From Mannheimia haemolytica (GTDB lineage: Bacteria > Pseudomonadota > Gammaproteobacteria > Enterobacterales > Pasteurellaceae), in contig LR134495.1 in assembly GCA_900638155.1 (NCBI GenBank), positions 2,271,739-2,335,738 of the forward strand: a stretch of DNA of 64,000 nucleotides. The letters run 5' to 3'. The notes beneath the pieces are model-generated. The model had not been told where the DNA came from, did not search any database, and saw only the letters and a program-made list of their open reading frames with translations. The first letter of the stretch is position 1. The number at the start of each line of letters is the position of its first letter. The translations under genes and the position numbers were made by a program. Of the stretch, positions 27,192 to 35,272 are shown piece by piece.

Positions 27192-28457
27192 TTAATGCCC
27201 ACTTAACACTTTTGCCGGTTCTAATTTAGCGGCACGGTTGGCGGGATATAAACTTGCACAAAGACTTAAAATAATCGTAGCAGCCAAGACATAGACAACA
27301 TCTTGCCAATGCAATTCACTTGGTAGGAAATCAACAAAATAAACCCCATCTGAAAGCAATTTCATCCCAAAGAATGCCTCAATCGCTTTGATGATAGCGG
27401 TCAAATTTAGCGATAAAATTACACCTAAAATCAGCCCGAATAACGCCCCTTTCATACCTGAAATTAAGCCATACCACAAGAAAATGCGGCGGATAAAACC
27501 GTTATTTGCCCCGAGTGTCCGTAAAATCGCAATATCGCCCTGTTTGTCTTTCACCGCCATAATCAAGGTAGAAATAATATTAAAACAGGCAACGCCAATC
27601 ACCAGAACCATTGCAATGTACATCACGGTGCGAATCAGCTGAATATCGTTATACATATAACCAAATTTATCAATCCACGTATTCAAATAAAGCGGTTGGG
27701 TATAGCCGTTAAGTTGTGGCATTTCAAGCTGTTGTACATCAAACGGATTGGCAAGGCTGATTTCAAGCCCTGACACTTCATTCGCTTGGTATTCCAACAG
27801 CTCTTGAGCTTTATTCAGTGGAATCAAGGCATAACTGTGATCCAGCTGCCCATCTAGCCGCAAAATGCCGGTTACGTTTAGATTAAAACGCAAGGGCTGG
27901 GCTAATTTACCCTCTTCTGTTGGCTGAGGAATTAAAAGCGTAACTTCGTCTCCTGCCTCAACTTCTAACGCTTTGGCAATACCGGCTCCTAAAATCAAGC
28001 CATCTTCATCGGCTTGAAATTGCTGATTGAACGCTTGCCATTGCTCGGGTGGAATAAATTGGCTTAATTGGCTGACCTGATCTTGCTTTTTAGGATCAAC
28101 CCCTCGCACCTGGGCGATTTTAAGCTGAGCCCCATTTTCAATTAAGGCGGTAAAGCTGACAAAAGGCGAACTAGCGGTCACATTTTGCGATTTTTTTACC
28201 AATGCCTCTAATTTTTTGCTATCAAAAATTGGTTGAGGCTGATTGTCTTGAAACGAAACCAGTTCAGCGTGTGGCACAACCGAAAGCACACGATTATTCA
28301 GCTCTCGCTCAAAGCCGTTCATTGCACTTAGCCCGATAATCAATACTGCGACCCCAAGGGCAATACCGATGTTGGAAAAGAGGGCAATTAGTGAAACCAG
28401 TCTGTTTTTCTGTTTGCCCCGTTGGTAACGCCAGCTAATGAAAAACGGCGTACTCAT
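27192..28457 (-). CDS. lolE: Lipoprotein-releasing ABC transporter permease LolE
   Basis: 421 residues; four membrane helices (one near the N-terminus, three at the C-terminus) around a periplasmic domain. The start [20 protein letters not shown] and [20 protein letters not shown] are LolE-like, as is [17 protein letters not shown]. With LolC and LolD it extracts outer-membrane lipoproteins from the inner membrane for LolA. Its ATG overlaps the lolD stop (ATGA), so translation is coupled. Last gene of the operon. Confidence 0.93.
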
Positions 28458-29137
28458 AAGCTCTCCTCGCTTAACACGCCATCTCGCATTACAAGACTAC
28501 GTGAAAGTTTATTCGCCAGGTTTAAATCGTGCGTTACTAATAAAAACGCAATATTTTGCTCTTGGTTGAGCTGTTGAATCAGCTCAAAAATGCTTTCGGT
28601 GGTTTTTTGATCTAAATTACCGGTCGGTTCATCGGCAAGTACCAGAGCAGGATTATTAACCAACGCTCGGGCAATCGCCACCCGTTGGCGTTCACCGCCT
28701 GAAAGTGCTGATGGGCGATGTGTCATTCGATGAGCTAATCCGACCGCTTGTAACATTTTCTCGGCACGGTTGGCAGCTTCGGTTTTGTTCTGTTTGCCGA
28801 TCAGCATCGGCATCATCACATTTTCAAGGGCGGTAAAGTCTGCCATTAAGTGATGAAACTGGTACACAAAGCCTAAGTTTTGGTTACGCAATAACGCCAA
28901 TTTGTCTGAACTGAGCTGTTGCAGTGATTGCCCTCGAATCCAGACTTCACCGGTGCTTGGCTGATCTAGCCCGCCTAATGTGTGCAATAGGGTGCTTTTG
29001 CCGGAACCTGAACTACCGACAATCGCCACCAGCTCACCTTCGTTCATCGAAAATGACACCTCTTTTAGCACCTGAACTTTCTGTTCGCCCTCATCGTAAA
29101 ATTTGCTGATATGTTCACAGCGAAGTAATTCTGTCAT
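28454..29137 (-). CDS. lolD: Lipoprotein-releasing ABC transporter ATPase LolD
   Basis: 227 residues from ATG 29137 with AGAGG upstream, giving the same N-terminus as other LolD proteins ([14 protein letters not shown]); a second ATG at 29155 would overlap the unknown gene upstream. Walker [11 protein letters not shown]-loop [17 protein letters not shown] (a LolD hallmark), signature [15 protein letters not shown], Walker [13 protein letters not shown]. Supplies energy to LolCE. Normally it follows lolC directly; here an unrelated AT-rich gene sits between them and ends one base before this start. Confidence 0.95.
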
Positions 29138-29138
29138 T

Positions 29139-29936
29139 TTAACCTCTTTGGCCATATAAAATATAATTTAGCAAATTTTGAATCTCTTTGGGACCAGACT
29201 CTATTATTAATTTATATAACTCTCCAGATATACATAAATATGAAATAAAGATAAGTAATAAAGTTATAGAAACTTTTTTAAATCCCCAGATAACTCTCTT
29301 TTTATTAAAGAACTTATTTACTGATAGCAATAACATTGACGCGACAACTTCTTTTAAAACTAACATAAGAAGTAAAACACCAGATATGTATATAGTTATC
29401 CATATTATTAAGTTAGGGCTTCTATAGTAATTAGATAAAAATTCTAAAATACCTTTTTTATTCAGATAATTGCTTATACTAGTAAAAGAATTATTTTTAC
29501 TAATTAAATCAAATGCAAAATCCAATATAAAATAAAAAATCAGATGAATAAATATAACAGCGATCCAGCTATAATCATATTCTCTCTTATGGACTCTATA
29601 CAATAAGCATCCAATGCATAGAAATATTATGATCTTATTTAATACGTTAAACAAAAAATGTACATAATTAGGGTTAAATAAATAGAAAATAAAAAATATA
29701 AAAATAAAAACACCTAATAAACCATCATATGGTTTATTGATGATTTTATTGTCTATATAATAATTGATAGATATAGATGTATTATTAACAACCGAGTTTG
29801 ATGTTGTTGTTTTAGATTTGTCTAATAAAAAAGTTAAAAGAACTCCAATAATTGTTGAAATAATACTAATAAGAAAATCATCGCTTTCTAATAGTTTGAT
29901 AACGTTTTGCATATTAAATATCTCGTAATTATTCAT
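29139..29936 (-). CDS. Unknown AT-rich multi-span membrane protein inserted between lolC and lolD
   Basis: 265 residues. Not recognised. Predicted helices by eye: 21-38, 72-88, 92-113, 124-146, 176-206 (long, perhaps two) and 221-239, with a polar Thr/Ser/Asn segment (41-66) after the first. No catalytic motif seen. Base composition is very different from both neighbours: many lines are near 20-25% G+C, with Ile/Asn/Lys/Phe-rich coding and AT-ending codons, and there is no uptake word. Yet the gene fits the operon perfectly: its ATG overlaps the lolC stop (ATGAATAA) and its TAA is one base from the lolD ATG. It looks foreign but translationally coupled. Function could be lipoprotein-related, a defence or toxin/immunity membrane protein, or a passenger. 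Confidence 0.8.
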
Positions 29937-31101
29937 ATCTCAATGCCTGTGCCGGCTCAATTTTTGAGGCTCGGTATGCCGGGTAAAGCGTGCAAAGGAG
30001 TGAAAGCAACATCGACACCCCAACAATAACCGCAATTTGCGTGCCTGAAATTAGGGTTGGCAGCTGTATGCTCGGATTTAATAACAGGATAATCTGATCT
30101 AAATTGTAGGCAATCAGCACTCCAAGCAAACCACCAATAATCGAGCCAATTACCCCGACAATCGCCCCTTGGAACACAAAAATCTGCATCACTTGTTTTT
30201 TGGTTAAGCCTTGAGTTTGTAAAATCGCAATTTCGCCCTGTTTGTCCACCACCATCAAACTGAGTGAAGTCACAATATTGGAAATTGCCACCACAATAAT
30301 TAGGCTAATAAGTAAACCCATCATATTTTTTTCCATTTTTACCGCTTGGAAAAATTCACCTTTTTGCTCCCGCCAATCACTGATTTGGTAGCGTTCTGCA
30401 TCGAAATATTGGCTAAGTTCGGTAACTTGGAACGGATCTTGCAAATATAAACGCACGCCTTGTACTTGATCTTCACTGATACGGAGCAAACGCCCGACAT
30501 CGGCTAAATTGGCAAAGAGGGTAAATTCGCTCGCTTCCCGATTAGATTGATACACGCCCGAAATTTCAAACAAACGTTGCACCGGCACTCGACCCAGTGG
30601 CGTATATTGGCTGTTTTCAGTGATCATTAAGCGAAGCTTATCGCCAATGGTTACATTCAATTTATTTGCCAAGCGAGAGCCAATTACTACCTTAAATTCA
30701 CCACTAGGTAGTAATGCTGGGATATTTTCCGCCACTAACAACGGATCGTCTGTGGCATTTTCCACGCCGATTAACTGACCGGCGTTAATGCCTTGTGAAC
30801 TTTGGATAATCACATTCGCACGGTTAATCACCACACTTTGCTTGGCAAATTCTGGTAGAGCCAGTTTTTCACCTTTGGCAAAATGCCCCTCTTGAGGGGT
30901 GATGATAGCGTGAGGCAAGGTGGATAGCAGATTGGTTTTCTGCATATTTTCTAAACCGTTCATAACCGACAGCACAATCACCAATGCCATTACGCCCAGT
31001 ACAATGCCAAGGCTGGCAAGATTGGTGACTAACCGCCCGAAACGGTCAGCACTTTTCGATCTAAAATAGCGAAAGGCAATAAAAAAAGGGGTTAAATTCA
31101 T
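29929..31101 (-). CDS. lolC: Lipoprotein-releasing ABC transporter permease LolC
   Basis: 390 residues. N-terminus FIAFRYFRSKSADRFGRLV then LGIVLGVMALVIVLSVMNGLE is LolC-like, as distinct from LolE. The periplasmic domain includes PHAIITPQEGHF; three C-terminal helices follow, with NIVTSLSLMVVDKQGEIAIL and the final [18 protein letters not shown]. First gene of the lol operon; its stop overlaps the start of the unknown membrane gene. In known systems LolC holds LolA through a hook in the periplasmic domain. Confidence 0.93.
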   Translation of the reverse strand: MNLTPFFIAFRYFRSKSADRFGRLVTNLASLGIVLGVMALVIVLSVMNGLENMQKTNLLSTLPHAIITPQEGHFAKGEKLALPEFAKQSVVINRANVIIQSSQGINAGQLIGVENATDDPLLVAENIPALLPSGEFKVVIGSRLANKLNVTIGDKLRLMITENSQYTPLGRVPVQRLFEISGVYQSNREASEFTLFANLADVGRLLRISEDQVQGVRLYLQDPFQVTELSQYFDAERYQISDWREQKGEFFQAVKMEKNMMGLLISLIIVVAISNIVTSLSLMVVDKQGEIAILQTQGLTKKQVMQIFVFQGAIVGVIGSIIGGLLGVLIAYNLDQIILLLNPSIQLPTLISGTQIAVIVGVSMLLSLLCTLYPAYRASKIEPAQALRYE

Positions 31102-31167
31102 CTGTTTCTTTTAAAAATAATAGATACTACGGGTGGATATATCTGTCCGTCCCTACGGAGTTTAGCA

Positions 31168-31233
31168 CTCTCTCCCCTTGTGGGAGAGAGACCGAAAAAT
31201 ATTTCGTTCAGAAATATTTTTCAGAGAGAGGGG
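31168..31233 (+). repeat. Dispersed two-hairpin repeat, copy A
   Basis: Hairpin 1 CTCTCCC-CTTGT-GGGAGAG, then hairpin 2 GAAAAATATTT / AAATATTTTTC, then a closing AGAGAGGGGG. Same plan as copies B and C but with a different inner stem. Located in the 283-bp gap between lolC and hprA. Confidence 0.8.
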
Positions 31234-35237: not shown

Positions 35238-35245
35238 AAGTAGTA

Positions 35246-35265
35246 GGGACGTATGTCATACGCCC
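35246..35265. repeat. Small palindrome between prfA and prmC
   Basis: GGGACGTATGTCATACGCCC, a near-perfect stem in the short gap. The sequence TAGGGACG recurs inverted at about 31151, so it may be a scattered element. Confidence 0.4.
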
Positions 35266-35272
35266 AATTATA

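Follow-up and report, generated by a model that had tools for sequence, protein, structure and literature searches.

A likely horizontally acquired gene for a predicted six-helix membrane protein inside the lolCDE operon of Mannheimia haemolytica

The genes lolC, lolD and lolE, which encode the LolCDE lipoprotein exporter, are essential. In the Mannheimia haemolytica DNA analysed here (a stretch of 64 kb, hereafter the window), lolC and lolD are separated by a further gene on the same minus strand, which we refer to as the cargo gene. This raises the question of whether the cargo gene is part of the exporter or a passenger in its operon, and what its product might do. The interrupted operon begins with lolC (29929..31101, 390 aa; NCBIfam LolC/LolCE models), the product of which is 99% identical in the relative G001. 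The cargo gene is followed by lolD (28454..29137, 227 aa from MTELL; NCBIfam TIGR02211) and lolE (27192..28457, 421 aa; NCBIfam LolE models), both on the minus strand, with a lolE-lolD overlap of 4 nt in all seven genomes compared.

Extent, composition and expression of the cargo gene

The original prediction described a 265-codon gene with an ATG overlapping the lolC stop. While a 265-codon open reading frame with an intact frame does exist (29139-29936, minus strand), the likely gene comprises 257 codons (29139..29912). The overlapping ATG (29934..29936) belongs to a conserved lolC end, GATATGAATAA, which is also present in four of the six congeners that lack the cargo gene (L004, L007, L008 and L009); the remaining two (L005 and L006) have GATACGAATAA in its place. 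In alignments of the protein family, the first Met of other members coincides with the second Met of the cargo ORF (29912), and the database entry P0001 and the relative P0002 both begin at this second Met. Because of these three observations, the overlapping ATG is probably not the start codon, and translation probably begins at the second ATG, 16 nt past the lolC stop. The TAA of the gene was correctly placed one base ahead of the lolD ATG (29137).

Counted from 29912, the cargo gene has a GC content of 22.9% (GC3 19.8%), compared with 43.6, 46.3 and 43.0% for lolC, lolD and lolE respectively. It has the lowest GC content of the 52 ATG-started ORFs of at least 150 aa within the 64-kb window, the runner-up being at 37.0%, in agreement with the strong AT-richness noted originally. 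Approximately six hydrophobic segments were recovered from the hydrophobicity peaks of the protein, as grouped by the author, and six or so transmembrane helices are predicted for the 257-aa product. The gene was also said to lack an uptake word, and indeed contains no copy of ACAAGCGGT. This is true but uninformative, as 27 copies per 64 kb correspond to approximately 0.33 expected in 786 bp, and absence is expected by chance in approximately 72% of cases.

A pattern scan detected neither a minus-strand promoter-like site upstream of the cargo gene nor a minus-strand terminator-like site in 28400-31200. Within the cargo gene itself there is a single promoter-like match on the minus strand (29519-29490), with the number of such matches not above that of shuffled sequences. 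As no promoter of its own was recognised, the cargo gene is likely transcribed from the lol promoter by read-through, and the co-expression with the lipoprotein exporter that had been proposed is, as far as a pattern scan can indicate, probable. The lolD translation signals are likewise preserved despite the insert, in support of the original proposal. The last cargo codons, CAA AGA GGT (Gln-Arg-Gly), contain the likely lolD ribosome-binding site AAAGAGG (29143..29149, minus strand), with an anti-Shine-Dalgarno pairing of -6.5 kcal/mol compared with -3.3 to -4.6 kcal/mol in six congeners. This makes the lolD ribosome-binding site of the window the strongest of the seven genomes scored.

The empty site and other occupants of the lolC-lolD junction

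Comparison with G001 (L052) by blastn reveals that homology stops at 29141 and restarts at 29928, so that a segment of 786 bp in the window (29142..29927, minus strand) corresponds to 18 bp in the empty site. The flanks are 95.0% identical over 8.7 kb and 94.6% identical over 5.3 kb. The insert contains the single cargo gene and nothing else, and is not surrounded by a long flanking repeat. The cargo gene was not found in any of the six congeners searched, and among 100 genomes searched it matched only two, the window itself and G036, the G036 copy being located after hslU as opposed to between lolC and lolD. An ancient member of the lol operon, present at this place in nearly all Pasteurellaceae, is thus rejected in favour of an insert, and the horizontal gain originally proposed is upheld by the absence from all six congeners, by the empty site in an approximately 95% identical relative and by the different gene that occupies the slot of G006. 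We consider horizontal acquisition likely, and infer that the direction of change was gain and not loss, because a short lolC-lolD gap is the common state and insertion is the simpler direction. The protein P0003, labelled Mannheimia granulomatis, shares the C-terminus ILYGQRG with the window protein, and may for this reason lie in the same lolC-lolD slot.

The lolC-lolD gap was then compared across 140 genomes of the Pasteurellaceae. It is shorter than 100 bp in 76 genomes, 100-299 bp in 10, 300-1499 bp in 8 and 1.5-20 kb in 24. Of the other 22 genomes, nine have lolC and lolD at distant places or in a different order, eight have them on different contigs and four on different strands, and one yielded no LolC match that passed. 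Other genes do occupy the same slot in relatives. In G006, the slot holds a gene for a 185-aa GNAT acetyltransferase, a protein with nine relatives at E ≤ 1e-20 in a protein search; a gene of this type occurs in two of the 140 genomes, the second copy having no lol genes among the listed ORFs. Another occupant of the slot is bioA, found there in 24 of the 140 genomes, spanning three genera, by visual comparison of the coordinates in every one of the 24. The one genome tested with family models (L045) contains bioA, bioF, bioC, bioD and one ORF without assignment in the slot. These bio genes resemble the cargo gene in being accessory cargo in the same slot and on the same strand. However, they differ in comprising several metabolic genes over approximately 4.6 kb that encode unrelated proteins, and are not AT-rich in L045-L047. 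Other species of two genera (g30 and g43) have a lolC-lolD gap of 18-35 bp, such that bio genes are present or absent inside an essential operon.

As a control, gaps between adjacent co-directional genes around the operon were compared among seven sequences, namely the window and a 60-kb region from each of the six congeners. In this small sample, 13 of 43 pairs qualify as tight (median gap below 100 bp, at least five genomes), each compared in five to seven genomes, and lolC-lolD is the only one with gaps above 300 bp (two of seven genomes), the other 12 pairs having none. The prmC-prfA pair nearby, the median of which places it outside the tight set, also varies within the genus, with gaps between 35 and 1045 bp. 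Its gap is 35 bp in the window (35238-35272) and 474-1045 bp in all six congeners compared, where it holds a 177-aa lipoprotein-like ORF and/or an ORF of approximately 130 aa that we take to be ASCH-like; the window genome seems to have lost these ORFs.

Two further features of the lolC-lolD gap were observed. An uptake word of the ACAAGCGGT type is found in the gap of three congeners (L007, L008 and L009), and could favour DNA import at the junction. In genus g11, eight of nine genomes (L010 and L012-L018) carry a repeat-like sequence of approximately 110-210 bp in the gap, starting near CCACGGAATAC; the ninth (L011) has a gap of 24 bp. Taken as a whole, the comparison gives a hint that lolC-lolD is a recurrent socket.

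A rare family and its genomic settings

The cargo protein matched no model in NCBIfam or PHROGs, none of the PADLOC 2023 families at E up to 1, and nothing above the cut-off in Pfam, where the single match, AOX, lies far below it (E 0.54). A structure predicted from 20 aligned sequences is all-helical (pLDDT 74.9, pTM 0.62), and a structure search with this model yielded no match above noise. The first protein search returned two relatives, P0002 and P0003, that are 83% and 66% identical to the window protein and align ungapped over 215 and 154 residues respectively. Both are incomplete, with P0002 (215 aa) lacking the end and P0003 (154 aa) lacking the first ~100 residues, which could reflect contig ends, start calls or disabled alleles. 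The homolog in G036, found among the 100 genomes searched, is 30% identical over residues 10-263 (E 2e-10), and the sequence of its ORF resembles the Phocoenobacter skyensis protein P0004. A four-sequence profile that included the G036 homolog retrieved 20 proteins at E ≤ 1, among them proteins from Vibrio cholerae (44 members), Photobacterium and metagenomes. A scan with two short patterns against 84,980 species, each represented by one genome, led to eight loci, in Vibrio, Comamonas, Pseudomonas (three), Pseudoalteromonas, Aeromonas and Litchfieldella. In seven of these the match spans the entire length of the family, and in the eighth it reaches residue 198 only. The P. skyensis protein is 63% identical to a Vibrio member, while the window protein is only 21-25% identical to P0005-P0020 and is linked to them via this one intermediate; the function of the window copy may for this reason differ from that of its distant relatives. 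We regard the family as a rare, unnamed group of predicted six-helix inner-membrane proteins, and found no published description of it.

Several family members sit in mobile settings. In L059, the family gene lies beside an integron integrase (TIGR02249, E 3e-139) and is bounded by cassette ends that match at nine of nine positions, a fit reached in none of 500 shuffles; in L060, the ends match at eight of nine positions, a fit equalled in seven of 500 shuffles. The two loci have a single stretch in common, 897 bp long and 81% identical, which corresponds in size to one cassette, and these are the two of nine loci at which family members are integron cassettes. The test for cassette ends was negative in L049, L054, L055, L056, L058 and L061, and L057 offered no candidate end. 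For the window copy, the status of integron cassette was considered and rejected, as no GTT-started end, hence no matching pair, occurs in the 80 bases upstream. As a rule, integron cassettes have no promoter of their own and rely on the platform promoter (PMC11014356), so that members of this family would be well suited to a borrowed operon. The window copy resembles these mostly promoterless cassettes through its relatives in L059 and L060, but differs from them in lacking cassette ends and in lying in a conserved operon rather than an array.

Other members have defence-type genes as neighbours and may be cargo of defence-rich islands. Among the three Pseudomonas loci, which have their right flank in common, the family gene adjoins a CBASS cyclase and a phospholipase in L057, lies near a CARF-STK-AAA protein in L056, and has a tmRNA 0.6 kb upstream in L058. 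In L061, the neighbours include a methylase and a dCTP-deaminase-like protein, and in L055 a caspase. Defence-type neighbours thus occur at four of eight loci (L055, L056, L057 and L061), a count that derives from hand-picked neighbours and comes without a background rate. The PADLOC scan covered ten defence-looking ORFs, one of them in G036 and the other nine at L054-L057, L060 and L061, with L058 and L059 contributing none; those of L054 gave no match and those of L060 weak matches only. In contrast to the family members in such neighbourhoods, present in several hosts, the window copy is alone, as a one-gene insert.

The G036 copy lies in a block of approximately 2.4 kb after hslU (L049:6121-8498), together with two ORFs of 82-83 aa and a 253-aa ORF with hydrophobic segments; no integrase is found among its ORFs. 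On either side of the block lies a direct repeat of the end of hslU, 86% identical (142 of 166 bases alike) over at least 166 bp, a lower bound since the compared piece ended there. No such block occurs within 1.5 kb after hslU in any of three congeners of G036, and the block looks like a small mobile unit. As with the window copy, a gene of the same family has been placed after a conserved gene in one genome and is missing there in congeners, but the four ORFs and the direct repeat set the G036 block apart. Around the window copy, neither cassette ends nor a long flanking repeat were recognised that would point to its route of entry.

Possible roles of the cargo protein

The proposed function for or on LolCDE finds no support in the distribution of the family. 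An accessory or modifier of LolCDE that alters lipoprotein release would account for the position of the gene inside the lol operon and for the preserved lolD signals. However, LolC, LolD and LolE were not found near any of the nine family loci outside the window (tblastn, E 1e-5, loci of 11-14 kb), all six congeners live without the cargo gene, and the use of the same slot by unrelated genes (GNAT, biotin synthesis) points to an effect of the site. Given a family without ties to lol and a slot used by unrelated genes, we consider a LolCDE role very improbable; the cargo gene is likely a passenger that borrows the expression of the operon and not a part of the exporter. Such a passenger could be neutral or selfish, without benefit to the cell and retained since its landing was non-polar on lolD and lolE. 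The persistence of a GC content of 22.9%, the presence in the window only among seven genomes of the genus, and the two incomplete nearest relatives, which could be disabled alleles, are consistent with neutrality. Set against these are the intact frame in the window, the ungapped alignment of the existing parts of P0002 and P0003, and the full-length matches in seven of the eight distant loci, and we regard a purely neutral gene as unlikely.

A solo immunity protein against a membrane-acting bacteriocin or a contact-dependent toxin, kept on by the lol operon, is similarly doubtful. A solitary, patchily distributed multi-helix membrane protein would fit this role, which would be well served by constant expression within an essential operon, but inspection by eye of the ORF lists of the nine family loci revealed no toxin-like partner, and the defence-type neighbours, hand-picked as they are, speak against it. 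Bacteriocin immunity and the neutral passenger are nevertheless the main competing readings. Phage protection, one of the original suggestions, would fit some of the neighbourhoods. On the basis of these neighbourhoods, and of V. cholerae integron cassettes, at least 16 of 179 (about 10%) of which are reported to be anti-phage in a review (PMC12409362) that covers Darracq 2025 and Kieffer 2025, our leading guess is a predicted anti-phage role at the membrane, for and against which the chances seem roughly balanced. With the same even confidence, we propose that the cargo gene is a horizontally acquired member of the six-helix family, expressed by lol read-through, that encodes a stand-alone, abortive-infection-like anti-phage membrane protein and not a part of LolCDE. 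According to this proposal, the gene would have entered the lolC-lolD gap by horizontal gain, its mRNA would be made by read-through of the lol operon, and lolD would be translated from the ribosome-binding site within the last cargo codons. In the simplest model, the cargo protein would perturb the inner membrane upon phage infection.

A bolder and rather tentative extension, which we think improbable in full, is that lolC-lolD does the work of an integron without an integrase, as a socket in which accessory genes lacking promoters are captured singly, expressed constitutively and protected from silencing, with the cargo gene a new single-gene membrane anti-phage system. The protection would arise because silencing of the cargo gene would also silence lolD and lolE. 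While mobile genes in operons are known as such, novelty seems to lie in the family itself, in the presence within an essential operon of a gene related to ones from integrons and islands, and in the hint of a recurrent lolC-lolD socket. If the proposal is true, small mobile cassettes gain a second mode of expression, by lodging in an essential operon where a gene cannot be silenced alone. The six-helix family would then provide a short list of single-gene candidates for phage protection, and gene order beside essential genes may mislead guesses at function.
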